Below the pieces are notes generated by a model. The model was not told where the DNA came from. It worked only from the letters and a program-made list of their open reading frames with translations, and searched no databases. This document shows positions 1 through 62,742 of a stretch of 64,000 nt of DNA, in pieces (the stretch's first letter is position 1; every line of letters begins with the position of its first letter). The translations under genes were made by a program, and so were the position numbers. The stretch comes from Hyphomicrobiales bacterium. GTDB lineage: Bacteria; Pseudomonadota; Alphaproteobacteria; Rhizobiales; OSC116. The stretch spans positions 1 to 64,000 of the forward strand of contig NVUH01000016.1 in NCBI GenBank assembly GCA_002401855.1, in the 5' to 3' direction.

Positions 1-371
1 AAAGACAGTTGGCTGGTTGTCGAGGCTCTGGAAGTTTGCATTTTTGTTTGGCACTGCGTGCGTTCGCTCCGCTCTCTAGCTTAAGCCACTCAGCCGCTGA
101 TCAGCGGTAGACACACCACCCAACCTAACCGCATTATGCTTAGTAAGCTGGAGTTTGGTGAGGCTCTGCATATAGGTGCCATACTGTTTGCTCATTGTGC
201 TTTTCATGGGAAATGGGTCCGAACCCGTAGGGTAAGGCAAGGCCGACTGGCCGTCGGGCAGTTAGCCCGTAGCAAGCTTGCGGAGGCAAGCGCCCGCAGG
301 GGCTCACTAGAGAGCGTAGCGAACGTAAAAATGCAAACTTCCAGAGCCTCAACGGCCAGCTAACTGTCTTT
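1..371 (+). repeat. Family A interspersed repeat, copy 1, with extended terminal inverted repeat
   Basis: GCTCTGGAAGTTTGCATTTTT at 25 and AAAAATGCAAACTTCCAGAGC ending at 347. Outer arms aaagacagttggctgg... and ...ccagctaactgtcttt are also inverted. Confidence 0.9.
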
Positions 372-382
372 AATAAAGAAAG

Positions 383-2935: not shown

Positions 2936-2971
2936 TGGTGGAGTTTATCACAGGGGTGGCGTCCTGCCAAC

Positions 2972-3387
2972 GCTCTGGAGGTTTGCTTTATGTTTGGCAC
3001 TGCACCCCAAGGGTACTTTGTCGCTTTGCTCGGGCGCGCTCGTTCGCTCCGCTCTCTAGCTAAGCCACTCAGCCGCTGATGGGACGCAAACTCACCACCC
3101 AACCTAACCGCATTATGCTTAGTGAGCTAGAGTTTGGCGAAACGCAGCATATAGGTGCCAAATTATTTACTCAATGTGCTTTTCTAGGAAAAAAAGTCCG
3201 AACCCATAGGGTGAGGCAAGGCCGACCGGCCGTCGGGCGGTTAGCCCGTAGCAAGCTTGCGGAGGCAAGCGCCCGCGCCGTGAGCGTAGCGAGGAAGTGC
3301 CCTTGGGGTGCAGGGGCTCACTAGAGAGCAACGCGAACGATAAAAAGAGAGGCCAAAGCCGAACGTAAAAATGCCAACTTCCAGAGC
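2972..3387 (+). repeat. Family A interspersed repeat, copy 2
   Basis: Terminal repeats gctctggaggtttgc / atgccaacttccagagc; shared core modules plus inserted caccccaagggtactttgtcgc-type cassettes. Confidence 0.9.
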
Positions 3388-3405
3388 ATCAACAGCAGCG
3401 CTCCC

Positions 3406-8722: not shown

Positions 8723-8921
8723 CACCCCAAGGGCACTTCCTCGCTTCGTTCACGGCGCAGCAAGCCCAATCTATCATGGTAAAAGAGTCCGAAGCCGATA
8801 GGCTGAGGCAAGGCCGACTGGCCGTCGCGCGGTTAGCGCGTAGCAAGCACGCGGAGGCGTGCGCCCGCAGGGGCTCACTAGCGTGCCTTAAGGCACGCGT
8901 AAAAATGCAAACTTCCAGAGC
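8723..8921 (+). repeat. Family A repeat, copy 3 (5'-truncated)
   Basis: Right half with aaaaatgcaaacttccagagc end; variant hairpins gcacgcGGAGgcgtgc and gcgtgccttaaggcacgc. Confidence 0.85.
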
Positions 8922-8939
8922 TTAGGCAGGACACTGCCC

Positions 8940-24738: not shown

Positions 24739-24756
24739 ATATGTAATGCATTTCAA

Positions 24757-24971
24757 TGGCACACCGAAACTCAGAATATCGTCAACCTCTCGCCACCTCA
24801 GCTTAATGATGATAGATTGGGTGGTGAACCAGCACACGACCAGCGGCTGAGTGGCTTAGCAAGCACGCGGAGGCAAGCACCCGCGCCGTGAGCGGAGCGA
24901 GGAAGTGCTCTTGGGGTGCAGGGGCCACTAGCCCACCGAAAGGTGGGCGTAAAAATGCAGACTTCCAGAGC
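24757..24971 (-). repeat. Family A repeat, copy 5 (truncated, chimeric)
   Basis: gattgggtggtgaa...cagcggctgagtggcttagc joined to caggggccactagcccaccgaaaggtgggcgtaaaaatgcagacttccagagc. Confidence 0.8.
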
Positions 24972-25056
24972 ATTAAAAATAGCAATCATCACACCCAAGC
25001 CACCAAAACCAAAACAGCACCTTTTTACCTGTACGTCACTATATTGAGTTTTATTT

Positions 25057-29409: not shown

Positions 29410-29907
29410 ATGGCACACATAAAAATGGATCGCATTTTTGTAAAAATATTGTCTTTACTACAAAAAAATGGCCGCATCTCCAATTCCGACCTATCCGAAC
29501 AGGTAAATTTAAGCGCCAGCCCCTGCCATCAACGCATGCGCAAACTCGAAAAATCGGGCATCATCAAAGGCTATATGGCAAGGCTAGACCTCTCAAAACT
29601 ACGCCATCACGATACAGTCATTGCCGAGGTTGCACTCAATTCCCACAATATGGAAAGCTTCGTCCAATTCGAGCAATATGCCCGCAACCACAGCCGCATC
29701 GTCGAATGTTTCAAAGTCTCAGGCCCCTTCGATTATTTCGTCCGCTTCATCTGCAAAGATATGGAAGAATATAACCAACTATCCGACGAAATTCTAAGCG
29801 AAACCAACGCCGCCACCTGCAAAAGCTTCGTCGTCCTACAACATGTAAAAGAATTCACCGGCTACCCCCTAGATATGCTAGCAGACGACACCCCCGAATA
29901 TATTTAA
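29410..29907 (+). CDS. Lrp/AsnC family transcriptional regulator
   Basis: MDRIFVKILSLLQKNGRISNSDLSEQVNLSASPCHQRMRKLEKSGIIKGYMA. Confidence 0.92.
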   Translation: MAHIKMDRIFVKILSLLQKNGRISNSDLSEQVNLSASPCHQRMRKLEKSGIIKGYMARLDLSKLRHHDTVIAEVALNSHNMESFVQFEQYARNHSRIVECFKVSGPFDYFVRFICKDMEEYNQLSDEILSETNAATCKSFVVLQHVKEFTGYPLDMLADDTPEYI

Positions 29908-30215
29908 CATTTTTTACGCCCACCTTTCGGCGGGCTAGCAGCCCCTGCGGGCACGATACTCCGTATCGCTTGCTACGCCTAACGGCGACGCGCAGTCGCG
30001 CTTGCCTCAGCCTACGGCTTCGGACTCATTTCCCACGAAAGGCACACTAAGTAAACTATATGGCACCTATACTCGGAGTTTCGCCAACTTCTAGCTCACT
30101 AAGCATAATGCCGCTAGGTTGGGTGGTGAGTTCACGTCCCATCAGCGGCTGAGTGGCTTAGCTAGAGAGCGGAGCGAACGCACGCAGTGCCAAACATAAT
30201 GCAAACTTCCAGAGC
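29908..30215 (-). repeat. Family A repeat, copy 6 (left terminal repeat truncated at the lrp stop codon)
   Basis: cattttttacgcccacctttcggcgggc...atgcaaacttccagagc. Confidence 0.88.
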
Positions 30216-30221
30216 ATAGGC

Positions 30222-30318
30222 AGTACAGCCAACTTTCTTATGTCTTAGCAACGGCAAATGCTGGTTCACCAGTCGCAACTCCTGCGCAAAATTTCCACAT
30301 CACAACCTTTCAGCAAAC
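30222..30318 (+). repeat. Family B repeat, copy 2
   Basis: tacagccaactttcttatgtcttagcaacggcaaatgctggttcacc...cctgcgcaaaatttccacatcacaacctttcag; matches reverse complement of 8940-9045. Confidence 0.75.
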
Positions 30319-30340: not shown

Positions 30341-30723
30341 ACTCTGGAAGTCTGCATTTTTACGTTCGGCTTCGCCTCTCTAATGGCCCCTGCGGGCGCT
30401 TGCCTCCGCAAGCTTGCTACGGGCTAACCGCCCGACGGCCAGTCGGCCTTGCCTCACCCTACGGGATCGGACTTTTTTTCCTAGAAAAGCACAATGAGTA
30501 AACAGTTTAACGCCTATATGCGGAGCATCTCCAAACTCTAGCTCACTAAGCGTATCTCCAAACTCTAGCTCACTAAGCGTAATGCAGCCAATTTAGGTGC
30601 CGAATTCACCCCCAACCAGCGGCAGAGTGGCTTAGCTAGAGAGCGGAGCGAACGAGCGCGCCCGAGCGAAGCGACAAAGTGCCCTTGGGGTGCAGTGCCA
30701 AACATAATGCAAACTTCCAGAGC
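30341..30723 (-). repeat. Family A repeat, copy 7
   Basis: actctggaagtctgcattttt...atgcaaacttccagagc; internal 27-bp tandem duplication near 30525-30580. Confidence 0.9.
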
Positions 30724-30852
30724 ATAGGCAGTACAGCCAACTTTCTTAAGGTATTCTCAGAAATAAATAGAAACACCGAATTTGCTTTGCATTCCACTTC
30801 ATTTCCCTCTATATCTTCTGCAAAAATAATCCGCAGCTAAGTAGGAGTTTGT

Positions 30853-39936: not shown

Positions 39937-39993
39937 TGTGCCAAATCTTAAGCTCATAAGTTGCAGCTATCTAAGGGGTGCGCTCCTGTTGAT

Positions 39994-40330
39994 GCTCTGG
40001 AAGCTTGCTTTATGTTGGGCACTGCGTGCGTTCGCTCCGCTCTCTAGCTAAGCCACTCGGCCGCTGGTCGGATGCAAATTCACCACCCCAATCAACTACA
40101 TTACGCTTAGTTAGCTAGAGTTTGCAGATACTCCGAGAACAGGTGCCATATAGTATACTCAATATGCTTTTCATGGAAAATAAGTCCGAGCCCGTAGGGT
40201 GAGGCAAGGCCGACTGGCCGTCGCCGTTAGGCGTGGCAAGAGAGCGGAGCGAACGCACGCTAGTGCTAATAGAGAGCAACGCGAACGATAAAAGAGAGGC
40301 GAAGCCGAACGAAAAAGTCTAAACTTCCAC
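39994..40330 (+). repeat. Family A repeat, copy 8, overlapping folD 3' end
   Basis: gctctggaagcttgctttatg...aaaaagtctaaacttccacc. Confidence 0.88.
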
Positions 40331-41949: not shown

Positions 41950-44223
41950 ATGTCCGATGAAAGCCTCAAACAACGTGCCTTAAAATATCACAAATACCCG
42001 CGTCCCGGTAAAATGACCATCACCCCCACTAAACCTTTGGGCAATGCACGCGACCTTTCACTGGCTTATTCCCCTGGCGTGGCCGAAGCCTGCCTCGAAA
42101 TCGTCAAAGACCCACAAACCGCCCGCGATTATACCATTCGCGGCAATCTTGTTGGCGTCGTCACCAATGGCACAGCCGTGCTAGGCCTAGGCGACATCGG
42201 CCCCCTAGCTTCAAAACCAGTGATGGAAGGCAAAGCCGTCCTGTTTAAAAAATTCGCCGACATCGATGTGTTTGACATCGAACTCAACGAAAAAGATCCA
42301 AAAAAACTAGCCGATGTCATCGCTGCCCTAGAGCCAACTTTCGGCGCCATTAACCTAGAAGATATCAAAGCCCCCGAATGCTTCATCGTCGAAAACGATT
42401 TACGCGAGCGGATGAACATCCCCGTATTTCATGATGACCAACATGGCACCGCCATCGTCGCAGGAGCGGCCATTTTCAACGCCCTACGCCTCGTCAATAA
42501 AAAATTCGAAGATGTAAAAATCATCTCCACAGGCGGCGGCGCAGCTGGCATTGCCTGCCTAAATTTGCTGCTCACCCTAGGCGCAAAACGCGAAAACATT
42601 TATCTATTCGATCACACAGGCCACATTCACAAAGGCCATAAAGATGCATCAAGCCAAAAAATGGATTTTGCCCAAGCCAAAAAAATCGAATTAAAAGATG
42701 CCCTTGTCGATGCCGATGTTTTCTTAGGCCTGTCAGCCCCCAATCTGCTGACTGCCGAAATGATCATGCCAATGGCCAAAGACCCGCTCATTCTGGCGCT
42801 GGCCAACCCCAACCCAGAAATCATGCCCGATGTTGCCCGCGCCGCACGCCCCGACGCCATCATCGCCACAGGCCGCAGCGACAGCGCCAACCAAGTCAAT
42901 AACGTCCTCTGCTTCCCGTTCATCTTTAGGGGCGCACTAGATGTCGGCGCCACCACAATTAACGAAGAAATGAAACGCGCCTGCGTTGTCGCCATTGCCG
43001 ATCTAGCCATGGTCGAAGCCTCAGAAGTGGTAGCCAACGCCTATCAAGGCGAAAGCCTCACATTCGGCAAAGAATATGTAATCCCCAAACCATTCGATCA
43101 GCGCTTATTGGTAGAGATTGCCCCCGCCGTGGCCAAAGCCGCCATGGACAGCGGCGTTGCCACCCGCCCGATTGAAGATTTCAAAGCCTATAAAGAAGAT
43201 TTAGAGCATTTTGTCTACCGCTCACAAATGCTGATGAAACCTGTCATTGACCGCGCCAAAACCAACCCCAAACGCATTGTTTATGCCGAAGGCGAAGACC
43301 GCCGCGTGCTACGCACCGTGCAAACCGTCATCGATGAAGGCATCGCCATTCCCGTATTAATTGGCCGCCCCGATGTCATCGCCAACCGTTGCGAGCAATT
43401 GGGTCTGCACATTCGCCCACACGAAGATTTCGAGATTTGCAACCCTGAAAATGATGCCCGTTATAGCGATTATTGGAACGAGTTCCATAAAATCATGCAA
43501 CGCGATGGCGTCACCCCAGCCGAAGCACGAACCATCATCCGCACCAACAGCACCGCCATTGCCAGCATCATGCTCAAACGCAAAGAAGTCGATGGCATGA
43601 TTTGCGGCTCCTATGGCCAATATTTCTGGCATTTAAAATATGCGCTCAACATCATCGGCAAACGCGAAGATGTCGGCGATGTTTCCGCCATGAACGGCTT
43701 GGTGCTCGAAGACGGTGCCCTATTCTTCTGCGACACCTATGTAACTCCCATTCCAACCATCGATGAAATCGTCGAAACCACCCTAATGGCGGCAGAAGAA
43801 CTAAAACGCTTTGGCATCACCCCCAAAATCGCGCTAATCAGCCACAGTAACTTCGGCAATGCCCCCACAAAATCAGCCTTAAAAATGCGCGACGCCGTTA
43901 AAATTTTAAACAAAGTTGCCCCCGATTTAGAAATCGATGGCGAGATGCATGCCGATGCCGCAATTGACCCCGAAATCCGCCATGCATTATTCCCCAATTC
44001 ACGCCTCACAGGCCGCGCTAACTTGCTGATATTCCCCAACTTAGACACCGCAAACGCAAGCTTTAACTTGCTCAAAGCCATTGGCAACGGCCTCAGCGTC
44101 GGCCCCATATTACTAGGCATGAAACAACCCATCCACATCGCCACCGACAGCATCACCTCCCGCGGATTGATGAACCTAACAGCGGTAACCGTGGTTGATG
44201 CGCAGATATTGGAAGAGAAATAG
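41950..44223 (+). CDS. maeB: NADP-dependent malic enzyme with C-terminal phosphotransacetylase domain
   Basis: [55 protein letters not shown]-like C-terminus. Confidence 0.94.
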
Positions 44224-44290
44224 AAGCAAGCTCAGCAGTCAAATTATAAATGCTGAGCGAGCTGCCACCAAAGGGTGGCGTCCTGCTAAT

Positions 44291-44612
44291 GCTCTGGAAG
44301 TTTGCATTTTTACGTTCGCTTCGCTCTCTAGTGAGCCCCTGCGGGCGCACGCCTCCGCGTGCTTGCTAACGGGCTAACCGCCCGACGGCCAGTCGGCCTT
44401 GCCTCACCCTACGGGCTCGGACTTTTTTTCCTAGAAAATCACAATGAGTAAACTATATGGTACCTATACTCGGAGCTTCGCCAAACTCTAGCTCACTAAG
44501 CATAATGCGGTCAGGCTAGGTGGTGAATTTACCGCTGATCAGCGGCTGAGTGTCTTAGCAAGCGAACGGAGTTCGCGCACGCAGTGCCAAACATAAAGCA
44601 AACTTCCAGAGC
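44291..44612 (-). repeat. Family A repeat, copy 9
   Basis: gctctggaagtttgcatttttacg...aaagcaaacttccagagc. Confidence 0.92.
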
Positions 44613-44653
44613 ATTAACAAGCGGCCACCCAGCATCACAACCACCGCCAAAAC

Positions 44654-45433
44654 TTACTTCTCAGTATTCATCAACCGCCCAATAACCAACCGCGACAACC
44701 ATTTCGGCACCAAACGCAGCATATAAGGCAACAACCTATTCATCGTCCCCGTAACCACAATAGTTTCACCGCGCATATAACCGTTAAACCCAATTTCAGC
44801 CACAGCTTCAGCACTCATCAACGGCGCATAATCAAACAAATCAGAGCGCCCCATTTGCGCCCGCTCCCCAAACCCAGTTTCAGTCGATCCAGGACAAACC
44901 GCACTCACCTTAATATTCCGATGCTTATTCTCTTCCGCCAACGCTTCAGTGAATGACAAAACAAATGCCTTACTCGCCCCATAAACCCCCATATAAGGCG
45001 TTGCCAAAAATGCCACGGTCGAAGCAACATTCATCACACCCCCACCATTGGCCTCAATTTCATCCAAAAACCGTATCGATAAATCCGTCAAAACCCGCAC
45101 ATTCAAATCAACAATATTCAACTGCGCCTCAATCCCCAATTCACGCATCGAGCCATTCAACCCAAACCCAGCATTATTGACCATATGCTTAACACTCAAA
45201 TCATTCTCTTTAAGATAGGCAACCAATGTCCCAACCGCATCCAACAAACTCAAATCCAGCACCAAAACATCAACCCTGCACGAATGCCGCTCAACAATTT
45301 CATCAGCAACCCTCTGCAGCTTATCCCCCGACCGCGCCACCAATAACAAATCTTCCCCCAAACCAGCAAATTGATAAGCCAACGCCTCACCAATCCCCCC
45401 CGACGCCCCAGTAATAATTGTTATCGCAGTCAT
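44654..45433 (-). CDS. SDR family oxidoreductase
   Basis: ITGASGGIGEALA, NNAGFG, YGASKAFV. Confidence 0.92.
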   Translation of the reverse strand: MTAITIITGASGGIGEALAYQFAGLGEDLLLVARSGDKLQRVADEIVERHSCRVDVLVLDLSLLDAVGTLVAYLKENDLSVKHMVNNAGFGLNGSMRELGIEAQLNIVDLNVRVLTDLSIRFLDEIEANGGGVMNVASTVAFLATPYMGVYGASKAFVLSFTEALAEENKHRNIKVSAVCPGSTETGFGERAQMGRSDLFDYAPLMSAEAVAEIGFNGYMRGETIVVTGTMNRLLPYMLRLVPKWLSRLVIGRLMNTEK

Positions 45434-45537
45434 AATCTCATTCCCATCTTAAAAGCACCGCACCCGCACTCAATCTCTCCGCACCCCACCCAGTTTAAAA
45501 AACTCATATGTTTTTTAAACCAGCCGGACTGGAGGCC

Positions 45538-45595
45538 GCCACTTATGTGGCGCACCCGTGTAGGCCCGAGCAAAGCGAGGAATAGCCGCGAACGA
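45538..45595 (+). repeat. Family C short hairpin repeat, copy 2
   Basis: gccacttatgtggc gcacccgtgtaggcccgagcaaagcgaggaatagccgcgaacga. Confidence 0.6.
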
Positions 45596-45612
45596 AACAA
45601 ACCAAACCAAAC

Positions 45613-46080
45613 CTATAAACTAGCCTTAACCGCTTCCCGCAACGCAATCCGATCATTGGTTGAAACCCCCAACAACTCCGACACCCGCCAAATCAAATTA
45701 TCCTCAAACGGCGTAATCTCATTGTCAGCCAATACAATCTTCCACAACATGCGCACAATCTCCTTGCGCCCATCATTGTCCAATTCATCATTCAATTTTC
45801 TAGTAAATTTATACAGGTCAATCGCATCACGCTCAGCATTATCAGCGTCTTTAATCAATAAAGTCGCTTCCTCTTCGCTAATGTCGAAATGCTTCTGAAT
45901 TTGCCTATGCATCACACGGGCTTCTTCAGCACTATAAAACCCGTCAATCCGCGCCGCATGCACCATCAAAGCCACCGCAGAAAGCTGAAACTCATCATCC
46001 TGCAAGTCAGCACCGCTAAGCTTCTGTCCCATTAATTTATCTGTAAAAGATTTAATCTTTTGCCACATATATAGTCTCAC
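45613..46080 (-). CDS. TerB family tellurite resistance-like protein
   Basis: Helical LMVHAARIDGFYSAEEARVMHRQIQKHFDISEEEA...DNEITPFEDNLIWRVSELLGV. Confidence 0.85.
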   Translation of the reverse strand: MRLYMWQKIKSFTDKLMGQKLSGADLQDDEFQLSAVALMVHAARIDGFYSAEEARVMHRQIQKHFDISEEEATLLIKDADNAERDAIDLYKFTRKLNDELDNDGRKEIVRMLWKIVLADNEITPFEDNLIWRVSELLGVSTNDRIALREAVKASL

Positions 46081-46088
46081 TTTTTAGT

Positions 46089-47978
46089 TCAATTAGAATA
46101 ATAACCACCTTCACCAGCATCTTTATCATCACCTAGTAAACCAGGGTCATCAGGGCGATGCGGCAATGCAGCTTGGTCATCCCCTTCTACAATCGGCTGG
46201 CTACTATAGGGGCTTTTGCTGGCTTGCTGCGTCACTTCATTAGGCTTATTTTTATTGATTTTCTTTATAGTAGGCTTCTTGTTATCACTTGCTTTCAATC
46301 CACTAGATTTTTTAGTTCCCGATTTTTGTGGGCTGGCATCAGCAGGTTGAAAATCAATTTTTTCCTGTGCCTTAACTTTTTCGGTTTTCACATCCACGGC
46401 CTTCGGCGCAGCAACAACAGTAATTTTAGCCCCACCAATTCCACCTTTATCACCGCCATCATCCCCACCACTCTCGTCAGAAAGCTTATCTTTAGTGAGT
46501 TTTTCCTGCTTTTCTTCAGTAATTTTAGCCATTTCTAATTTGGCTTTTTTCTTCACGTCCACGATCTCTTGTTTTTGCGCCTTTTCTTGGCTCTGCAAAG
46601 CCTGCACTTCACTTTCATGATGTTCAAGCAAAATATTCGCCGCCATATCAGCTTCAACTTGTGCCAAATTATAATCAGGCACTTTCCATTCATAGGCATC
46701 CAGTTCACCCGTCACAGGCGATATCGGCGCCCAAACATCCGCAATATGCCCATCCGCCAGCCAAACAGGGTCACTTGGCGCCCGTTGCGCCCGCGCCAAC
46801 CACTCTGCCACCAGCCCTCTATTGCCCAATTCGCCTTGCTCAATCTTGGCCATCAAAGTGCACACCCGCGCGCTCGGATCATCAGCCACAATATTTTCCA
46901 GCGCTTTGCGCGCTGCCGCCCAATCACTCTGCTCAATCGCCACCCGCGCCACCATCACCGCCGCTTCCACGCCGCCGCGCACCGCCATATCAGCATGGCC
47001 AATCCCAGCCTTTAAAGCAAATGTCTGCACACGTTTTAACCAAATATTGGGTTTTTCTTCATCTTTTTGAACCGAAAACAACGCCCCAAGCTCTGGGTGC
47101 GGCGCCAAACGCCAGCATTTTTCTAACAATTTATGCGCCTTGCGCAAGCTCCCCTTAACCAATAATAATTTGGCAGCAAGCACTGTGGCTGGCACCAATT
47201 CTGGCGCATAAGTGCGGGCTTCTAACGCCAATTCCAACGCCCGTTCGGCATTGCTATCTTCAATATTCATCGCCTCAGCAGTTAGCAAAACCGCGCGCTT
47301 GCGTTTGTTTTCACCGGTATTTGTGCCTTCCAAACGGCCAATCATCAACAGGCTGTTAAGCGCTCCGCCCCAGTCACCTTCGGCAGTTTGCATGTCAAAC
47401 AACCCGTTCAACGCCCATTTGCTTTGCCCATCATGTGCCACCGCATCCAAGGCAATTAGCTTGGCCGCACCACCATCTTCATTACGCTGCGCTTCCATAA
47501 ATAAACCGCGCAAACCCAGCATTTTGGTCGCGTCTTGCTCAATCATTTTCTCAAAAGCTTTATGAGTTTGGTCTCTATTGCCTTCCAACTGCGCAGTTTG
47601 CGCCCGCAATAACAAAGTCAAAGGTTCGTTATCCAGTTTATCCGCCGCCAAACGAGCAAATTTTTGCGCCGTTCTTAAATCGCCAGAACCAACCGCAATA
47701 ATGCCCTTCGACAAAGCTTCATAACCTTTTTTACGTTTGCGTGATGAGAAAAACAGCCCAAAAGCATCAGGCGCGCCCATAACACCGCGCACCAAACGCC
47801 AAGTAATCACACACACCACCACCAATATAACAATGGACGCAATAAACAAACCCATCGAAATTTTAACGTGATAGCCAAACCAGTCAAATTCCACAAATCC
47901 AGGATTATTATTCAGCCACACGACCGAGGTAACAAACACCACAAATGCTATAAAATATCCAATCAATCTAATCATCAT
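46089..47978 (-). CDS. HemY N-terminal domain heme biosynthesis-associated TPR protein
   Basis: N-terminal TM pair, VEFDWFGYHVKISMGLFIASIVILV, AEALNIEDSNAERALELALEA; Lys/Ser-rich C-terminal tail. Confidence 0.88.
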   Translation of the reverse strand: MMIRLIGYFIAFVVFVTSVVWLNNNPGFVEFDWFGYHVKISMGLFIASIVILVVVCVITWRLVRGVMGAPDAFGLFFSSRKRKKGYEALSKGIIAVGSGDLRTAQKFARLAADKLDNEPLTLLLRAQTAQLEGNRDQTHKAFEKMIEQDATKMLGLRGLFMEAQRNEDGGAAKLIALDAVAHDGQSKWALNGLFDMQTAEGDWGGALNSLLMIGRLEGTNTGENKRKRAVLLTAEAMNIEDSNAERALELALEARTYAPELVPATVLAAKLLLVKGSLRKAHKLLEKCWRLAPHPELGALFSVQKDEEKPNIWLKRVQTFALKAGIGHADMAVRGGVEAAVMVARVAIEQSDWAAARKALENIVADDPSARVCTLMAKIEQGELGNRGLVAEWLARAQRAPSDPVWLADGHIADVWAPISPVTGELDAYEWKVPDYNLAQVEADMAANILLEHHESEVQALQSQEKAQKQEIVDVKKKAKLEMAKITEEKQEKLTKDKLSDESGGDDGGDKGGIGGAKITVVAAPKAVDVKTEKVKAQEKIDFQPADASPQKSGTKKSSGLKASDNKKPTIKKINKNKPNEVTQQASKSPYSSQPIVEGDDQAALPHRPDDPGLLGDDKDAGEGGYYSN

Positions 47979-48035
47979 ACATCCTAATTTTTTGGCTAAT
48001 TCTCAGCTAATTTTTAGCAGTTCTGCGGTTTCATT

Positions 48036-49262
48036 TTATTGCAATGATGTCAATATATCCGCGCTCACTTGGCGCATTAAATCTTGTGCCACCATGCGGC
48101 TTTTTACCGCTGCCATCCATTTGGCAAATACCATTTTGGCAGGGCCTTCAAGCCCTTCGCCCTCTGCAATGGCCGCACTTAAATTTTTGTTCAGTACAGC
48201 CACTTCCATCCGCGCCAACACCGCTTCAGCAGAACTGCCTTCAACATTACCCGTTTTACGAATAGAGATAACCGCTTTGGCATTGCCAATAAATTTATCG
48301 AATATCGATTTACCATCACCTTTTAAATCCGCCACCAAAGCCGCATCCAACAAACCGTTAAATTGGCCCAACAAAGTCACTTCACTGGCCAAACCTGTTG
48401 CCGCATAAGCGATTAATTCAGCCAGCGCAACATTATCGCCCGCCACACCTTTTAAGGCGTTAAGCTCCACTTCAAACGGCGCTTCGTCCTGCAATGCCCG
48501 CTCCAACGAGGCCACCGCCAGCGCAGTCGCCATGCCACTGGCATCACCAGCAACACCCGTGTTTTTGGCGGCTGCCACTTCCAAGGCATTTTCCGCAACC
48601 CTTTTCACCGCCGCCAGTTCCGCCGTAAGTGCCGCAATTTCTACTTCAATATCAGCAATTTTTTCTAAATCAACAGCTCGCGCCGCTTCATTTGCCACCC
48701 CCGCACTGTTCACACTCACGCTGGGCAATACAACATTCGATAGTCTTTCACGAATGCCCTCAATTGCCGCACTAAAATCCAAACTCTGCTCAGTTTGCTG
48801 TGCCGCCAAGCTTTCTAAAGCAACAATTTTGTCAATAATCGGCGATAAATCAGTCGGCTCAGTCGGTTCAGGCATCGTCTCTTGTATCTCAATCAGCTCC
48901 CCTTCAATCGACAATATACGGGTCGAAACGTCAGTATAACGCGCTTCAGCCGCCGCTGCCGCATCCCCGCCATTAATCAATTTACTCAAACCACCCAAAC
49001 TGTCCGATTTAAGCGCAAAATAACCCAGCCCAAACACCAACACCACAGTCGCCACACCGCCCAATAAGCCGGCCACAATCAGCCCACCAAAACCACTATT
49101 TTCTTTAACAATAGACGGCGCAATTTCATCCAATTCCCGATCAAGCGCCTCAAACAAAACATCCTCAGCCTCAACCTCTTCCACTGGTTCAGCTTCAATG
49201 GTTTCAACCACCGCATCTTCAGGCTTTACATCTTCATTTTTTTTATCATCTTCACTCATCAT
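48036..49262 (-). CDS. mitofilin-like (COG4223) inner membrane protein
   Basis: Acidic N-terminus, one TM, coiled coil, C-terminal helical region; position between hemD and the HemY-like gene. Confidence 0.78.
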   Translation of the reverse strand: MMSEDDKKNEDVKPEDAVVETIEAEPVEEVEAEDVLFEALDRELDEIAPSIVKENSGFGGLIVAGLLGGVATVVLVFGLGYFALKSDSLGGLSKLINGGDAAAAAEARYTDVSTRILSIEGELIEIQETMPEPTEPTDLSPIIDKIVALESLAAQQTEQSLDFSAAIEGIRERLSNVVLPSVSVNSAGVANEAARAVDLEKIADIEVEIAALTAELAAVKRVAENALEVAAAKNTGVAGDASGMATALAVASLERALQDEAPFEVELNALKGVAGDNVALAELIAYAATGLASEVTLLGQFNGLLDAALVADLKGDGKSIFDKFIGNAKAVISIRKTGNVEGSSAEAVLARMEVAVLNKNLSAAIAEGEGLEGPAKMVFAKWMAAVKSRMVAQDLMRQVSADILTSLQ

Positions 49263-49283
49263 TCAGGCCTATTCATGTGGAAG

Positions 49284-50006
49284 TCAGTTTAATTTTTTAT
49301 GCAGCAAGTCTAACAATGCCTGCTCATCGGGCTGATCTATATAATATATCTGTTTAAGATAGGGCTTACATGCCCGCTCTGCAATGTTTTTTGACAAACA
49401 AAATATAGGTAGAGAGCTTATTTTTGCCAAATGCCGCATTTCCTCGATTAAATCTATAAATATTTTTGCACTTCTAGTCGAATAAAACAATATAGCATCA
49501 ATTTCACCCGCGCATAATTTTTGTTCAATCTCAGGCATAATCTGTTTTGTTGGCTTCATTTCATAAGCCCGCAAACGCTCACAATCAATTGACAGTTCGG
49601 CTAAGCTTTTAGCCAAATCCCCCGCCTGATCCACACCTGATATATGCAACAATTTATTTTCTAGACCGCGTACCAAATAATCCCGCGCAATCACCTCAAC
49701 CAAACTCGCCACATCACCAGCGCCTTGGCCTAAAACCTCAAACCCATGCAAAGCCGCCAATTTAGCCGTTTGTTTACCAACCACATAACAAGGCAAGGCC
49801 TTAAATTCCGCAACATCCACAATAGCTCTTATGCCATTGGCCGATGTAAAAACCAAAGCCGCCACCTCATCCAACTTTGGCATTAAAAACTCAAGCTCGC
49901 AAAAGACCATCATCGGCGCAGACACAGCCAAAAACCCCAGTCCAGCCAAACCATCAGCCGTACGCTGAAAATCTTGCTGTGGTCTGGTGACTAATATCTG
50001 CTTCAT
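49284..50006 (-). CDS. hemD: uroporphyrinogen-III synthase
   Basis: ILVTRPQQDFQRTADGLAGLGF; LVFTSANGIRA; adjacent to hemC. Confidence 0.88.
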   Translation of the reverse strand: MKQILVTRPQQDFQRTADGLAGLGFLAVSAPMMVFCELEFLMPKLDEVAALVFTSANGIRAIVDVAEFKALPCYVVGKQTAKLAALHGFEVLGQGAGDVASLVEVIARDYLVRGLENKLLHISGVDQAGDLAKSLAELSIDCERLRAYEMKPTKQIMPEIEQKLCAGEIDAILFYSTRSAKIFIDLIEEMRHLAKISSLPIFCLSKNIAERACKPYLKQIYYIDQPDEQALLDLLHKKLN

Positions 50007-50010
50007 TCAC

Positions 50011-50958
50011 TTAAATCTCATATAAAGGTTCAAAAAAGTCAGGCCCAGCTTTTTCCAACAATTCCAAGCCCAAATTACGCCCAAAAACTTCCGCTTGGTT
50101 CAACGGCGCCGTAATCGCCACTTCATGCACAACTTTACCATCAGGCGTTAAGATCTTGCCTTTAAACTCAATTTGCTGGCCATATACTTGTGCCAAAGCC
50201 GCAATCGGCGTGCGGCAAGAACCATCCAATGCCCGCAAAAACGCCCGCTCCATATTCACTTCAACTTGGCTTTCACCACAATTAATCGCCGATAATAATT
50301 TAATCATCGATACATCATTATCACGCACCTCAAGCCCAATCGCCCCTTGCGCAACCGCGGGCAACATATCCGCCGCCGATATACTATGCGTCATCACTTC
50401 ATTAATGCCCAAACGATTCAATCCCGCCAAAGCCAAAATAGTCGCATCCACATCACCATTGGCAAGCTTTTCAAGCCGCGTTTGCACATTGCCCCTAAAA
50501 TTCACAATCTTAAAATCAGGCCGCATCGCCAGTAAAATCGCCGCCCTCCGCAAAGATGACGAGCCAATCACCGCCCCCTCAGGCAGTTCTTTTAACGCGT
50601 TATATTTAACTGATATAAACGCATCCCGCACATCTTCACGCGGTAAAATGGCGGTCATAATCAGCCCCACAGGCAGCACAGTCGGCACATCTTTCATACT
50701 ATGCACCGCAATATCTATCTTGCCATCGCTAAGCTGTTGCTCAATTTCACTAGTAAACAAGCCTTTGCCGCCAAAATCCTTAAGCGGCTTATCCTGAATG
50801 CGGTCACCCTTGGTCGAAATGGCGATAATTTCAAAATCTTTTTCATCCAGCCCAAAGGCCGATTTCAGCCTGTCACGGGTCTGTTGAGCCTGTATCAGCG
50901 CCAAAGGGCTACCGCGGCTACCAATTTTAATCGGAAGGGTTAAATTTTGTGGAATCAT
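50011..50958 (-). CDS. hemC: porphobilinogen deaminase (hydroxymethylbilane synthase)
   Basis: IKIGSRGSPLALIQAQQ, VHSMKDVPT, FLRALDGSCRTPIAA; start placed at MIPQN. Confidence 0.96.
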   Translation of the reverse strand: MIPQNLTLPIKIGSRGSPLALIQAQQTRDRLKSAFGLDEKDFEIIAISTKGDRIQDKPLKDFGGKGLFTSEIEQQLSDGKIDIAVHSMKDVPTVLPVGLIMTAILPREDVRDAFISVKYNALKELPEGAVIGSSSLRRAAILLAMRPDFKIVNFRGNVQTRLEKLANGDVDATILALAGLNRLGINEVMTHSISAADMLPAVAQGAIGLEVRDNDVSMIKLLSAINCGESQVEVNMERAFLRALDGSCRTPIAALAQVYGQQIEFKGKILTPDGKVVHEVAITAPLNQAEVFGRNLGLELLEKAGPDFFEPLYEI

Positions 50959-51033
50959 ATTCACAGCTTGCCTCATCTCGGCGTTTATTATAAAAGCGTT
51001 CTCATATATGAATATATATAGCATTTAGGTCAA

Positions 51034-52104
51034 GTGGGATTCCGCAAATTGTCACATAAACAAATCATATGTCTAGGCTTAGAATCCAGTTGCGATGACA
51101 CCGCCGCTGCCATTGTCAGGCGCAATGCCGATGGTAGTGCCGATATTCTGTCCAATATCATCCACACCCAAACCGATGTTCACGCCCCATTTGGCGGCGT
51201 GGTGCCCGAGCTAGCCGCCCGCGCCCATATAGAATATATGGATCAAATGGTCGCCGAAGCCCTCAAAACCGCGCAATTAACCTATAATGATCTAAACCTA
51301 GTCGCCGCCACCTCTGGCCCAGGCCTACTAGGCGGCGTCATAATCGGTCTGATGAGCGGCAAAGCCATTTCTTTAGCACACGATCTACCATTTATAGCCG
51401 TCAATCATCTCGAAGGCCACGCACTAACCGCAGGTCTTTCCCACGGCATCGAACCACCATATTTGCTATTACTCATTTCAGGCGGTCATACCCAAATCCT
51501 ACAGGTCAATAAAGTAGGACAATATGAATTATTGGGTACTACCATTGATGACGCCATCGGCGAAGCCTTCGACAAAACCGCCAAATTGCTAGGCCTTGGC
51601 TATCCCGGTGGCCCCTTTGTCGAACAGTATGCCAAACAAGGTAATCCCAAACGCTTCAACCTCCCCCGCCCCATGAAGGGTCGCAAAAACTGCGATTTCT
51701 CATTCTCAGGCCTAAAAACCGCGGTACTACATGCCGCCAAAAACATCCAACCTATCACCCAACAAGATAAGTATGACCTTTGCGCCGCCTTCCAAGCCGC
51801 AGCTGCCGATGTGCTAGCCGACCGCCTAAAACGCGCCATGCTGATTTTTCGTGAAAACCTCAATGTTACCATTGATTCACCCCAAAAACTCATCATAGCA
51901 GGCGGCGTAGCCGCCAACAAAGCCATCGCCCAAAAATTAACCGACCTTGGCCAACAACATAATTTCGAATTAATCGTTCCGCCGGCGAATCTATGCACTG
52001 ACAATGGCGCCATGATTGCATGGGCAGGCATCACCCAATATTTAAATGGCAACACCAACAACCTAACCGCCCCCCCCAGAGCTAGATGGCCACTTTACGA
52101 ATAA
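51034..52104 (+). CDS. tsaD: tRNA N6-adenosine threonylcarbamoyltransferase
   Basis: LGLESSCDDTAAAIV, HTQTDVHAPFGGVVPELAARAHIE, GGVAANKAI. Confidence 0.96.
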   Translation: MGFRKLSHKQIICLGLESSCDDTAAAIVRRNADGSADILSNIIHTQTDVHAPFGGVVPELAARAHIEYMDQMVAEALKTAQLTYNDLNLVAATSGPGLLGGVIIGLMSGKAISLAHDLPFIAVNHLEGHALTAGLSHGIEPPYLLLLISGGHTQILQVNKVGQYELLGTTIDDAIGEAFDKTAKLLGLGYPGGPFVEQYAKQGNPKRFNLPRPMKGRKNCDFSFSGLKTAVLHAAKNIQPITQQDKYDLCAAFQAAAADVLADRLKRAMLIFRENLNVTIDSPQKLIIAGGVAANKAIAQKLTDLGQQHNFELIVPPANLCTDNGAMIAWAGITQYLNGNTNNLTAPPRARWPLYE

Positions 52105-52114
52105 TACTGCCTAT

Positions 52115-52453
52115 GCTCTGGAAGTTTGCATTTTTGCTAAGCACTGCGTGCGTTCGCTCCGCTCTCTAGCTAAGCCACTCAGCCGCTGATCGGGTGCAAG
52201 CTCACCACCCAACTTAACTACATTAAGCTTAGTGAGCTAGAGTTTGGTGAAACTCCGAATATAGGTGCTGCATAATTTACTCATTGTGCTTTTCGTGGAA
52301 AAAGAGTCCGAACCCGTAGGGTGAGGCAAGGCCGACTGGCCGTCGCCGTTAGGCGTGGCAAGAGAGCGGAGCGAACGCACGCAGTGCTTATAGAGAGCAA
52401 CGCGAACGAAAAAAGGAGGCAAAGCCAAACGAAAAAATGCAAACTTCCAGAGC
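52115..52453 (+). repeat. Family A repeat, copy 10
   Basis: gctctggaagtttgcatttttg...aaaaaatgcaaacttccagagc; extended terminus tactgcctat abuts the tsaD stop codon. Confidence 0.92.
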
Positions 52454-52680
52454 ATTAACCGCACCACCAACTGTCTAAATCTCCAAATTAATCAAAAATT
52501 AACCATAATATACTTAAGTTTACCCACAGAACTTTAGCCTATTTCACCACTTCACCACACGTAAGACGCAAAAAAGGAGCAGATTTACATCTGCCCCCGT
52601 GCCTCTGGGTTAGAAAAATGGTCCGCTAACCCAACAAGTTAGGCTATACCCCGAGTTTTTCGAATCACCCTCAAATACAT

Positions 52681-54618
52681 TTATAAAGCTTCGTGATTTT
52701 TAATCAACTCTTCAACCACCTCAGGCTCAGCCAAAGTCGAAATGTCACCCAAATTACCATACTCATCTTCAGCAATTTTACGCAAAATACGCCGCATAAT
52801 TTTACCAGAACGAGTTTTAGGCAAACCCGGAGCAAATTGTAACTTATCTATGGTGGCAATCGGGCCAATTTCTTTGCGCACCCATTTAACCAAATCAACT
52901 TTCAACTCATCAGATGGCACACCATCATGCATCAAAGTCACATAGGCATAAATACCTTGGCCTTTAATCTCATGCGGAAAACCCACAACAGCCGCTTCAG
53001 ATACCGCATCATGCGCCACCAAGGCCGATTCAATTTCAGCCGTGCCCATCCGATGACCAGATACATTCAGCACGTCATCAACCCGCCCGGTAATCCAATA
53101 ATAACCATCCTTATCGCGTTTCGCGCCATCACCCGTAAAATATTTGCCTTTAAAAGTGCTAAAATAAGTCTGAATAAACCGCTCATGATCACCATAGATA
53201 GAGCGCGCTTGGCCTGGCCAACTGTCTGTTATGCAAAGCAAACCTTCGGCTTCACCTTCAAGCACTTTACCATCTTGGTCAACAATTTCTGGATGAACAC
53301 CAAAAAATGGAAAGCTTGCTGAACCAGGCTTCATCGCCGTTGCGCCGGGCAATGGCGAGATCAAAATCCCACCAGTTTCAGTTTGCCACCATGTATCCAC
53401 AATCGGGCAATTTTTATTACCAACAATGTTATAATACCATTCCCAAGCTTCAGGATTAATTGGCTCACCAACCGACCCCAGCAAACGCAAAGATGAACGG
53501 TCAGATTTAGTCACAAAATCATCACCCTTAGCCATCAAAGCGCGGATAGCGGTTGGCGCAGTGTAAAATGTCGAGACTTTATGTTTATCAATCACATTCC
53601 AAAACCGCGAAGCATCAGGATAAGTCGGCACACCTTCAAACATCAAAGTCGTCGCGCCATTGGCCAGCGGCCCATAAACAATATAGCTATGCCCCGTAAT
53701 CCAACCCACATCAGCAGTGCACCAAAAAACATCGTCATCATGATGATCAAATACATATTTATGCGTCATACTAGCATAAACCAAATACCCGCCCGTCGTG
53801 TGTAAAACACCTTTTGGTGTGCCAGTCGAGCCAGAGGTATAAAGAATAAATAACGGGTCTTCAGCCTTCATTTCTTCAGGTTCACAAGTTTCAGGCAAGC
53901 CTTTTTGCGCTTCCTTCACCCAAATGTCGCGGCTGTCATCAAACGCCACGTCACCGCCGGTGCGCATCACCACAAATACTTTTTCGCCACCTTCGGTTTT
54001 TTCAAGCGCGGCATCAACATTGGCTTTAAGCGGCACAGTCTTGCCCGCTCGATAACCTTGGTCAGCCGTCACAATAAATTTAGATTTGCAATCTCTAATC
54101 CGCCCCGCCAAAGCTTCAGGCGAAAACCCACCAAACACCACACTATGCGGCGCACCAATGCGCGTACAAGCCAGCATGGCATAAGCCGCTTCAGGTATCA
54201 TTGGCATATACAAGGTAACCACATCACCTTTTTTCACGCCATTAGCTTTGAGCATATTGGCAAACAAACAAACCTGTTTATGCAATTCATTATAGGTAAT
54301 ATTCTTAGAATCATCTGGGTTATCACCTTCCCAAATAATCGCAGTTTGCTCGCCACGTTCAGCCAAATGACGGTCAATACAATTGGCCGATACATTCAAA
54401 GTGCCATCTTCAAACCATTTAATCGAAACATCACCCTCAAAGCTAGTATTTTTCACCTTGCTAAATGGCTTCATCCAATCAATGCGTGTGCCATGATAAG
54501 CCCAAAAAATATCCGGATGTTCAGCCGAGCGCTTATGCAATGTGTCATATCTAGCGTGATTAACAAAGCTTTTGGCCGCAAAAGCTTCATGCGGATAATG
54601 TGTTTCAACTTTAAACAT
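52681..54618 (-). CDS. acs: acetate--CoA ligase
   Basis: [68 protein letters not shown]. Confidence 0.97.
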
Positions 54619-54711
54619 ATGTCTTCCTCTTTATTTATTGCCCCAACAATAAGGGATTTACCACCCAAAAGGGAGTCGTCCATTCGTGCCAATTTTATTT
54701 TTCATTAAAAT

Positions 54712-54996
54712 TTAAATCGGGTTTGAAAACGCAATCTTCATTGGTTTCACTGTCATTTTTTCAAACAAACCTGCAATCGCATAAGGGTCAGAAGCTAAAA
54801 ACCCATCCAACGCCGCACGGTCATCAGCTTCAACAATTAAATGCGAGCCAATCATTTTATCATCAGCACTCAATAACGCCCCACCAATAATTATCCGCGC
54901 GCCAGCATCAGCAGCAAACGCCAAATGCTTCTCGCGTGTCGCCATCCGTAAATCTAAACTATTTTCTTTGTCATAACATGAAACAGCAAAATACAT
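54712..54996 (-). CDS. YciI family protein
   Basis: MYFAVSCYDKENSLDLRMATREKHLAF...; the 5' extension of the ORF to 55089 is repeat-derived and excluded. Confidence 0.88.
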   Translation of the reverse strand: MYFAVSCYDKENSLDLRMATREKHLAFAADAGARIIIGGALLSADDKMIGSHLIVEADDRAALDGFLASDPYAIAGLFEKMTVKPMKIAFSNPI

Positions 54997-55012
54997 TTTA
55001 TCTCTCTTTTTG

Positions 55013-55118
55013 TTTGGCCCCTGCGGGCGCAACACTCCGTGTTGCTTGCTACGCCTAACGGCGACGCGCGGTCGCGCTTGCCTCACCACTGCGTGGATCG
55101 GACTCTTTTCCCATTCAA
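55013..55118 (-). repeat. Family A repeat fragment, copy 11
   Basis: gcccctgcgggcgcaacactccgtgttgcttgctacgcctaacggcgacgcgcggtcgcgcttgcctcac, core hairpin block only. Confidence 0.8.
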
Positions 55119-55138
55119 CGGCACCATCGCCACCAAAA

Positions 55139-56164
55139 TTATTCTTCTTTTTTCAAAGGCCGATTGAGTAAATTTTCAATGGCCGCATTCACATCCAAAT
55201 CACCTGCCACAATATCCGCCACGGTTTGGCAAATCGGCATATCAATGCCCAATTCTTTCGCCCATTTGGCCAAAATACTAGCTGTATGCACACCCTCGCT
55301 CACACTTTGGCGGGCATCCATAATTTGTTGCAAAGTCTGGCCTTGGCCAAGCGCCATGCCGAGCGACATATTGCGCGAGGTCGCGCTATTCGCCGTCAAA
55401 GTTAAATCACCCAAACCAGACAGGCCAAATAAAGTCTCACGTTTCGCCCCCAAAGCCACACCAAACCGCGTCAATTCAGCAAAACCCCGCGTGGTCAACG
55501 CCGCACGCGCACTGTCACCAAATCCCTTACCGTCCGAAATCCCCGTGGCAATCGCCAAAACATTCTTAACCGCCCCGCCAATTTGCGCCCCAATAATATC
55601 AGTCGAATGATAAAGCCGAAACGTAGGTATAGACAAAGCCTGCGCCAATTCCTGCCCAATTTCAGCATCTTCCATCGCCAAAGTAATCGCAGTCGGCAGG
55701 CCTTGCGCCACATCAATGGCAAAACTCGGCCCAGATAATATACCCGCCTGAGCCATCGGCAAAACCTCGGCCAAAACATCAGTCAACAACATACGGCTAC
55801 TAGCCTCAATGCCTTTAGCACAAATCAAAACAGGTATCGGCTTCTTCAAAAATTCACTAAATGCTTTACCAACATGCCGCACCACTTGCGCAGGCGTCAC
55901 CCATAAAATCGCGTCCATTTCGGCCATATCCGCCATGTCATTGGTGGCTTTTATCCCATCAGGCAACGGCACACCCTTCAAAAACACACTGTTTTCATGA
56001 GTGTCATTAATCGCCGCAACCACCTCAGGCTCATAAGCCCAAATCAAAGTCTCATGCCCAGCCTTCGCCGCCACACAAGCCAAAGCCGTCCCCCAAGCAC
56101 CTGCACCCATAACACCAATTTTTTTCACATTTTTTGTCACGAAAATCTTAACTCCCTCAACCAC
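55139..56164 (-). CDS. gpsA: glycerol-3-phosphate dehydrogenase (NAD(P)+)
   Basis: KKIGVMGAGAWGTALA, CAKGIE, SGPSFA, GAQIGGAVKNVLAIATGISDG. Confidence 0.95.
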   Translation of the reverse strand: MVEGVKIFVTKNVKKIGVMGAGAWGTALACVAAKAGHETLIWAYEPEVVAAINDTHENSVFLKGVPLPDGIKATNDMADMAEMDAILWVTPAQVVRHVGKAFSEFLKKPIPVLICAKGIEASSRMLLTDVLAEVLPMAQAGILSGPSFAIDVAQGLPTAITLAMEDAEIGQELAQALSIPTFRLYHSTDIIGAQIGGAVKNVLAIATGISDGKGFGDSARAALTTRGFAELTRFGVALGAKRETLFGLSGLGDLTLTANSATSRNMSLGMALGQGQTLQQIMDARQSVSEGVHTASILAKWAKELGIDMPICQTVADIVAGDLDVNAAIENLLNRPLKKEE

Positions 56165-56282
56165 ATACCCACATATTTAACCCCTGCTCAGCCATTAGGC
56201 AAGTGTTATGGTTAACAATCCAAAGCGTTTGCTACCAGCTAACTGTCTTTATGCAGCCTATGCGGGGAAGCATCCTGCCGAT

Positions 56283-56634
56283 ACTCTGGAAGTCTGCATT
56301 TTTTCGTTCGGCTTCGCCTCTCTTTTATCGTTCGCTTTGCTCTCTATAAGCACTAGCGTGCGTTCGCTCCGCTCTCTTGCCACGCCTAACGGCGACGCGC
56401 AGTCGCGCTTGCCTCAGCCAAAGGCTTCGGACCCTTTTCCCACGATAAGCACAAGGCTGCAAATTCTGAGTTTGTCGGGACGCACCGAAATTCGGAGTTT
56501 CGCCAAACTCGAGCTCACTAAGCATAATGTGGTTAGGTTGGGTGGTGAATTTGCATCCAACCAGCGGCTGAGTGGCTTAGCTAGAGAGCGGAGCGAACGC
56601 ACGCAGTGCCAAACATAATGCAAACTTCCAGAGC
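56283..56634 (-). repeat. Family A repeat, copy 12
   Basis: actctggaagtctgcatttttt...atgcaaacttccagagc; flanks agctaactgtctttatg / agccaactgtcatg. Confidence 0.9.
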
Positions 56635-56695
56635 ATCAACTATCAGCCAACTGTCATGTCTTCAACAGAGCCAAAAATCCAACTCATCATCCAAC

Positions 56696-56947
56696 TCAGA
56701 AATCCGACGTAATCCCCTTATTCTCCCAATCAGAATACCTAGTCGGCTCAAGCCCCTTAGCCCGCCCATTATATTCCTTAACCATCCCATCAGCCACTTT
56801 ATCAATCTCAGCCCGCCGCGCCGCCGCCTCACGTATCGCCTGCTCCGCCGCCGCCGAAATCACTTTCCCCCTAGCCGCCCCCAATTTTTCCAATTCGGTC
56901 AAATCACTCGGCTCAGTCACCAATGTATATTTAATTTCATCACTCAT
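56696..56947 (-). CDS. DUF1674 (SDHAF4-like) protein
   Basis: C-terminal GRAKGLEPTRYSDWENKGITSDF signature; adjacent to rsmB. Confidence 0.8.
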   Translation of the reverse strand: MSDEIKYTLVTEPSDLTELEKLGAARGKVISAAAEQAIREAAARRAEIDKVADGMVKEYNGRAKGLEPTRYSDWENKGITSDF

Positions 56948-57030
56948 ACCCGCACCCTAACGTAAAAACTTGACTCAAACAGCAAAAAAGCGTTTTTGAC
57001 ATCTAACTAGATGAAAAACGGATATCCACA

Positions 57031-58398: not shown

Positions 58399-58511
58399 GT
58401 AAAATCACCTGCATAACTATCCACATAAGTTGTCATGGCCTTGCAATGCCCATTATTGCTAGCTATGCTTAACTTTAAGTTATTATCATTTAAGGTTATG
58501 CGGCACAAAAT

Positions 58512-60221: not shown

Positions 60222-60340
60222 CACAACGTTTTTAGCAAAAAATTGTAGATAGCGCCACATAGCTATAGCAAGGCCGACCGCAATATGTTAGTTGAGCGAA
60301 TAATGCTATAGACCAACTTGATCATCATAAAGGAATAGTT

Positions 60341-61924: not shown

Positions 61925-61962
61925 AGCCTTAGCTGTAAAAATACAGATAGCTGGTAATTAAT

Positions 61963-62314
61963 GCTCTGGAAGTCTGCATTTTTACGCCCACCTTTCGGTG
62001 GGCTAGTGGCACTGCACCCCAAGGGCACTTTGTCGCTTCGCTCGGGTGCGCTCGTTCGCTCCGCTCTCTTGCCACGCCTAACGGCGACGCGCAGTCGGCC
62101 TTGCCTCACCCTACGGGTTCGGACTTTTTTTCCTAGAAAAGCACAATGAGTAAACAGTTTAGCACCTATACTCGCCGCTTCGCCAAACTCTAGCTCACTA
62201 AGCGTAATGCGGTAAGGTTGGGTGGTGTGTCTGCGTCCCACCAGCGGCTGAGTGGCTTAGCAAGCGAACGGAGTTCGCGCACGCAGTGCCAAACATAATG
62301 CAAACTTCCAGAGC
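61963..62314 (-). repeat. Family A repeat, copy 13
   Basis: gctctggaagtctgcatttttacg...atgcaaacttccagagc. Confidence 0.92.
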
Positions 62315-62342
62315 TTAAGCAGTATCCCTCATAGTTCCGAGC

Positions 62343-62741
62343 TTAAATCCGACTCCAAACCTGACCCTGACAGAAAAACAAAAAACACCCTTCAAGCTTA
62401 ACCTCATCATCATTCAACAAATTCACCACACCTTTATAAGTCTTACCATCCCGCGGATTATACAAATCGCCTTCCCATTTCTTCGGATCACCAGTAATCT
62501 CAAGCTTAAACAATTGCAAACCCAACATCGGCTGCCCCCGCAATTTCGGGTCTTCATTCTTATCATCCACCGCACCAGGCTTAGCTTCCTTCGCAATCAA
62601 CCCACAAATCGCGGTGCCACATTTCACAATGTCAATTTCACCTTTTTTATCCTGCGTCGCCCATTTACCATAAACCTCGGCTGCATAGGAACCACCACTC
62701 ATAAACCCCAGCATCATCAACACTAAAACCGCTTTTTTCAT
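62343..62741 (-). CDS. DUF2147 family secreted protein
   Basis: Signal peptide; YGKWATQDKKGEIDIVKCGTAICGLI...WEGDLYNPRDGKTYKGVV. Confidence 0.88.
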   Translation of the reverse strand: MKKAVLVLMMLGFMSGGSYAAEVYGKWATQDKKGEIDIVKCGTAICGLIAKEAKPGAVDDKNEDPKLRGQPMLGLQLFKLEITGDPKKWEGDLYNPRDGKTYKGVVNLLNDDEVKLEGCFLFFCQGQVWSRI

Positions 62742-62742
62742 A

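Follow-up and report, generated by a model that had tools for sequence, protein, structure and literature searches.

The element and its copies in the window

The window analysed here is a stretch of 64,000 nucleotides from a Hyphomicrobiales draft genome of 3.08 Mb. Region 181-347, in which the earlier note had described consecutive covarying mini-hairpins (H1 to H5), makes up the right half of a family A element, which measures 320-420 bp and is bounded by the terminal inverted repeat CTCTGGAAGTYTGCATTTTT. The terminal repeat has 111 genome-wide matches at no more than one mismatch, while the reversed control pattern has none. BLAST against the window and the genome places copy 1 of this compound element, with its inverted-repeat ends, at 1-375 (+). 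The left terminal inverted repeat (CTCTGGAAGTTTGCATTTTT, 26-45, +) was located by genome-wide pattern matches and the right one (327-346, -) is its exact reverse complement. Between them lies the multi-hairpin module H1-H4 (219-297, +), which is common to other alphaproteobacteria. H1 (ACCC-gta-GGGT, 223-233, +), flanked by CCGA and (G/A)AGG, was delimited by sequence, covariation and flank pairs; H2 (GGCC-gact-GGCC, 241-252, +) and H3 (CGGGC-agtta-GCCCG, 255-269, +) by covariation tests; and H4 (GCTTGC-ggag-GCAAGC, 276-291, +) by the list of alleles. In copy 1 the H5 position holds a hairpin of the GC-gta-GC type with no long stem.

Further forward-strand copies lie at 2957-3396 (module at 3198, +), 8723-8933 (module 8789-8885, +, with H5 GCGTGCC-ttaa-GGCACGC), 39987-40293 (module at 40186, +) and 52105-52476 (module at 52308, +), the last two with H3 CGCC-gtta-GGCG, together with a partial copy at 24740-25000 (+) that carries H5 of the type GCCCACC-gaaa-GGTGGGC. 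Reverse-strand copies lie at 29901-30260 (module 29928-30023, -, with H2 GCGC and H4 CGATAC-gga-GTATCG), 30342-30748 (module 30375-30470, -), 56281-56662 (module 56335-56430, -) and 61939-62324 (module 62027-62122, -). An isolated module with H1 CCAC-gca-GTGG and H4 GCAACAC-gga-GTGTTGC is found at 55004-55114 (-). The copy at 44276-44627 (-) stands 3' of a malic enzyme/PTA-like gene; it has an orthologue in the sister genome G005, and the site is empty in genomes G001, G003 and G004.

When a target-site duplication was sought, the flanks of the element proved to be semi-conserved modules that blur its boundary, and no clear duplication was seen. The window element combines terminal inverted repeats and many copies with the absence of an ORF, as a MITE does, and the naked module does not show this combination. 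An ORF-bearing element between paired repeats was considered and rejected, as the 3.4-kb pair on contig C50 encloses ordinary host genes, among them, to judge by the translations, those of an SppA-like protease and a polyprenyl synthase. Where compound elements stand tail to tail, a conserved 58-60 nt linker such as CTTAGGCAGGAGTGC..CCCAGTATAGGCTGTAAAAAGACAGTTAGCTGGTAGTTGAGG joins them (loci L032, L051, L063, L064, L066, L069, L076, L080 and L084), and the two halves of this linker also occur as alternative outer flanks of single elements. At L039:7456-8090, truncated element heads stand in tandem at a spacing of 167-168 nt and are followed by one full copy.

Architecture and alleles of the module

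The repeat consists of four or five small hairpins with stems of 2-7 bp in a fixed order, and the module follows the plan CCGA-[H1]-(T)GAGGCAAG-[H2, loop GACY]-G(T/C)CG-[H3]-..-[H4, loop GGA, GGAG or GGAT]. Its core pattern, GAGGCAAGNNCGACYGNNCGYC, has 74 matches in the genome and none when reversed. In many copies the tetranucleotides CGTC and GTAG adjoin H3 and H4, respectively. Some module copies (L228, L234 and L236) lack the inverted-repeat ends altogether, and the module is therefore independent of the compound element.

Reading of the copies recovered every H1-H5 variant that the earlier note had named in the window. Besides ACCC-gta-GGGT, H1 takes the forms AGCC-gata-GGCT (copy at 8789, +) and CCAC-gca-GTGG (copy at 55101, -). 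The H2 arms GGCC/GGCC are present in the copies at 219, 3198 and 8789, as described, with a correction to the loop, which was misquoted for the second copy (3198) and reads GACC rather than GACT; the arms GCGC/GCGC are present in the copy at 30023 (-). At H3, CGGGC-agtta-GCCCG and CGCGC-ggtta-GCGCG were found along with the CGCC-gtta-GGCG of the copies at 40186 and 52308. At H4, the stems beginning with GCTTGC, GCACGC, CGATAC and GCAACAC all enclose GGA(G), and both of the long H5 hairpins are likewise there. The accompanying statement that loops hold while stems change is strictly correct for H2 (GACY) and H4 (GGA, GGAG or GGAT); at H1, H3 and H5 it needs loosening, as the loops vary within a narrow grammar.

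Two main alleles of H2 and three of H3 occur in this genome, and H2 GCGC is always accompanied by H3 CGCC-gtta-GGCG. H4 has about nine fully paired alleles and a majority form that lacks local pairing: GAGAGC-gga-GCGAAC, the most frequent sequence at the H4 position (25 of the 59 parsed copies), has just two Watson-Crick pairs of its own and is predicted by folding to pair distantly with the left half of the element. In many copies the computed fold contains a long stem that joins the left and right halves.

Covariation of the stem arms

A covariance model built from 19 Anderseniella-type copies returned 180 matches, from which 139 distinct rows were used. Among these 139 copies, standard pairs make up 98.6% of the pair cells as compared with 82.1% after shuffling, and the covariation score of 0.288 (0.071 shuffled) was reached by none of 500 shuffles. 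Sliding the partners out of register reduced pairing to 26-41%. In a null that takes account of the tree, with the parsimony number of changes placed on a FastTree tree, the best seven column pairs all fall in stems, three of them at E<0.05 and seven at E<=0.12. Both the covariation score and the tree-aware test use a 139-row alignment that was fitted to the structure and is hence biased towards it.

A structure-blind test of H1 used solely CCGA and GAGGCAAG as anchors, considered the first three pairs in a fixed register and re-dealt the 3' arms among copies. Watson-Crick pairs numbered 67 of 75 in the genome of the window, against 54.1 in re-dealt sets (sd 2.9, maximum 64 in 2000), and 157 of 177 in other genomes, against 104.7 (sd 4.9). 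The bases flanking H1 add independent support. Read as 5'-CC(xx)..(yy)GG-3', the flanks in other genomes are GA/GA in 101 cases, GA/TC in 15 and GG/CC in four, with no TC/TC, which indicates that a tandem G-A step alternates with Watson-Crick pairs; CCTC..GAGG was read around H1 in several copies of the own genome. Given covariation in the shuffle, tree-aware and structure-blind tests, the arms have been kept complementary. The paired changes are real and the fold has been kept while its letters changed, as the earlier note had proposed, and the covariation reaches other alphaproteobacterial lineages.

Exchange of hairpins between copies

The paired changes could also arise if gene conversion swapped a few fixed hairpin cassettes whose folding is unselected. 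The small number of H2 and H3 alleles and the constant association of H2 GCGC with a single H3 form agree with this explanation, and so does the site behind the malic enzyme/PTA-like gene. This site is occupied in the genome of the window (G000) and in G005, and between the two H2-H4 are alike and H1 is one base apart, while the whole of H5 and of one left-half hairpin differs. In other, one-sided orthologous comparisons H1 or H2 alleles are exchanged, and separate insertions are possible there. Much of the variation within the genome is accordingly a reassortment of few hairpin alleles, and the few alleles and the whole-hairpin differences at the PTA site mean that within-genome variation by itself would suggest too many independent compensatory events. 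Against swapping as the whole explanation, H1 and H4 have many paired alleles, half-swapped arms occur in just one of 31 distinct H1/H2 combinations and covariation extends to distant alphaproteobacteria. The earlier note had recognised that swapping of a few cassettes might account wholly for its variants; this is borne out in part inside the genome, and we judge cassette swapping without selection on folding to be unlikely. The differences at orthologous sites, taken with the wider covariation, indicate that short-term change is largely hairpin exchange and that long-term change shows compensation.

The copy at 62027-62122 (-) has mismatched H2 arms (GGCC and GCGC) and is a possible half-exchanged hairpin. 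At L056 and L272, elements between the same two orthologous genes of sister genomes seem to have opposite orientations.

Placement and the question of a terminator

With genes predicted from ORFs by a simple rule, 76 of 155 copies (49%) lie between converging genes as compared with 29 of 211 background gaps (14%; p 2.5e-13). Four short covarying hairpins in fixed order recur in many intergenic copies, mostly between converging genes. Such a strong convergent bias would be expected of a bidirectional intrinsic terminator, and in relatives that lack the element at the PTA site an ordinary hairpin apparently stands in its place, judging by the sequence. However, terminator-like sites in window positions 44000-63900 number 23 as compared with 26.8 in shuffled sequence, none of them lies within any of the four complete elements of that stretch, and on the module strand neither H4 nor H5 is followed by a T-run. 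A terminator role is therefore very unlikely. The assignment of the element to intrinsic terminators, as GC-rich hairpins followed by a T-run, was rejected for the 44000-63900 part of the window.

Placement also bears on mobilisation by a REP-associated tyrosine transposase (RAYT). The repeat resembles RAYT-borne REPs in being palindromic, extragenic, of high copy number and placed between converging genes, and the GTAG and CGTC tetranucleotides beside H4 and H3 are suggestive of them. Yet the module has four hairpins, not one, and Y1_Tnp has no matches in the draft genomes G000, G001, G002 and G005, which makes this explanation extremely unlikely. The class of GTAG-REPs or REPINs was rejected on the same finding, no RAYT (Y1_Tnp) being present in these repeat-rich genomes. 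A search for an IS91-type Y2 transposase in this genome, G001 and G002 was likewise negative.

DNA or RNA as the folded form

The earlier note left the choice between a folded RNA and a DNA cruciform, and the results point to single-stranded or cruciform DNA as the better fit. The alternative is a structured RNA, either a dispersed sRNA or a 3'-UTR stabiliser, in which the fold is kept for its function as RNA. Its stems would covary as observed, tandem G-A steps are common in RNA, and copies just 3' of genes could be transcribed; moreover, many REPs have been argued to act as RNA (PMC3733652). A search of Rfam, however, returned no family above the gathering score and chance-level matches only under permissive settings. 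Nor do the copies prefer one sense with respect to their neighbours, tandem arrangements being 31 ++ and 33 -- (p 0.90). In fixed registers G-U pairs number nine against four A-C mismatches, a difference that is not significant (p 0.27). This count was preferred to that from the fitted alignment (35 G-U against five A-C), since the model behind the alignment is itself permissive of G-U and places some H3 pairs wrongly.

DNA and RNA differ in the loops that they favour, so that here the loops and the mismatches beside the stems can tell the two apart. Stable tetraloops of DNA include GNNA and GNAB, the favourite loop of RNA is GNRA, and GCGAAGC is far more stable as DNA than as RNA. Loop statistics were taken over distinct hairpins only, with the same loci outside the elements as background. 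GNA triloops account for nine of 15 triloops in the own genome and 33 of 74 in other genomes, against a background of about 5-6% (p 3e-8 and 7e-20). The mirror class, TNC, hardly occurs (0/15 and 1/74), so the loop grammar belongs to one strand. Among tetraloops, GNYA accounts for 9/29 in the own genome and 17/109 in others (background 2-3%) and GNAB for 5/29 and 17/109 (background 4%). GNRA occurs in one of 29 own tetraloops, as against the nine GNYA, and in 14 of 109 elsewhere, a mild enrichment over 79/2175. Mini-hairpins of the d(GCGAAGC) type have been described as extraordinarily stable DNA hairpins (PMC10527192). The conserved loops may merely be inherited.

For the three window copies folded with DNA parameters, the minimum-energy structure was the hairpin array and the module strand came out slightly more stable than its complement, with modest z-scores for the module strand (-0.9 to -2.3), while RNA-parameter folds showed no consistent strand preference. 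Placement, the G-U count, loops and folds together appear to favour DNA, which is more likely than RNA to be the folded form, and we regard a structured RNA as doubtful.

Distribution

The repeat is scattered through many unrelated alphaproteobacteria. Sister-genus genomes carry the whole element and other families of the order the module core only. Among the matches listed for an exact 19-mer of the module, the named genomes belong to Qipengyuania, Erythrobacter, Sphingomonadaceae, Parasphingorhabdus, Sphingorhabdus, Emcibacter, Kordiimonas, Anderseniella, Robiginitomaculum, Microvirga and Hyphomicrobiales, and in Sphingomonadaceae, Emcibacter, Kordiimonas, Anderseniella, Robiginitomaculum, Hyphomicrobiales and others the module recurs without the terminal-inverted-repeat element. 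In evenly drawn samples the strict pattern was matched in one of 384 other genomes of the class and three of 398 other genomes of the phylum; these low numbers indicate that the family is patchy and that the strict pattern misses variants. The core string was absent from the literature searched.

Several further occurrences were observed. The 19-mer lies on L146 (JAAVHG010000014.1), a contig titled as an Oscillibacter MAG that is possibly a mis-binned alphaproteobacterial contig or a case of transfer, and on nine contigs of a viral collection (L291-L299). Some hosts have tandem arrays of about 100 nt (L096, L158 and L177). At L094:1096-1130, near a module copy, the palindrome CGTCATCCCGGA..TCCGGGATCCA has the look of an ordinary CGTC-type REP.

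Proposed explanation

We consider it probable that H1-H4 are the core hairpins of a REP/MITE-like palindromic repeat, dispersed and non-autonomous, that is kept as folded single-strand DNA and whose hairpins are exchanged between copies. The folding unit would be one DNA strand, exposed as a single strand during replication or mobilisation. Consistent with this, the hairpins of the module strand are strongly enriched for the loops of very stable DNA mini-hairpins, and next to H1 lies a tandem G-A step that Watson-Crick pairs can replace. Copies would exchange whole hairpins via recombination or gene conversion, and the element would be tolerated downstream of genes. With both whole-hairpin exchange and compensation at work, the paired changes would be block swaps on short time scales and genuine compensations on long ones. 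A bolder proposal, which we put forward tentatively and hold to be rather improbable, is that selection acts on a linear array of ultra-stable hairpins of single-stranded DNA (GNA/GNNA loops and tandem sheared G-A steps), and that the repeat is an alphaproteobacterial mobile element recognised by a non-HUH enzyme and evolving by whole-hairpin exchange.

Placement is the usual ground on which bacterial palindromic repeats are argued to persist as RNA, as DNA or as junk. The present family offers many natural variants across the whole class with which DNA and RNA can be compared. If folding of DNA is what has been kept, it points to a single-stranded-DNA process that spreads or protects the repeats.

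Comparison with known systems

RIME, BIME and BOX, of rhizobia, enterobacteria and pneumococci respectively, are mosaic intergenic units of palindromic modules, and by description alone the window element is alike in being mosaic, intergenic and built of palindromic modules. Like a MITE, it has terminal inverted repeats of about 20 bp, no ORF and orthologous sites that are occupied or unoccupied within the genus; unlike a MITE, its module also exists without inverted-repeat ends, both in this genome and outside the genus. The C-G-closed GNA triloops resemble d(GCGAAGC) mini-hairpins, and the cores GC-gaa-GC and GC-gca-GC recur at H1 and H5. This likeness is drawn from sequence, and d(GCGAAGC) is a physical motif, not a family of genomic repeats.

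REPs tagged with CGTC or GTAG are high-copy extragenic palindromes of 20-40 bp with one stem (8-9 bp in CGTC repeats) that almost invariably starts with A-T pairs; they are patchy over species and lie mainly between unidirectional and converging genes, and the CGTC repeats are typical of alphaproteobacteria and lack a dedicated transposase (Di Nocera et al. 2013, PMC3733652). The module repeat is similarly high-copy, extragenic, palindromic, patchy and placed between converging genes, and its bias towards the 3' ends of genes agrees with REPs in the broad sense. It differs from the tagged REPs in having four or five stems of 2-7 bp in fixed order with conserved CCGA, GAGGCAAG and GACY joints. 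Set against the published description (PMC3733652), membership of the CGTC-REPs was rejected, as the module does not fit the combination of a terminal CGTC tag, a stem of 8-9 bp that begins with A-T pairs and a CCA tail. The family is best read as a new multi-hairpin, REP/MITE-like non-autonomous repeat.
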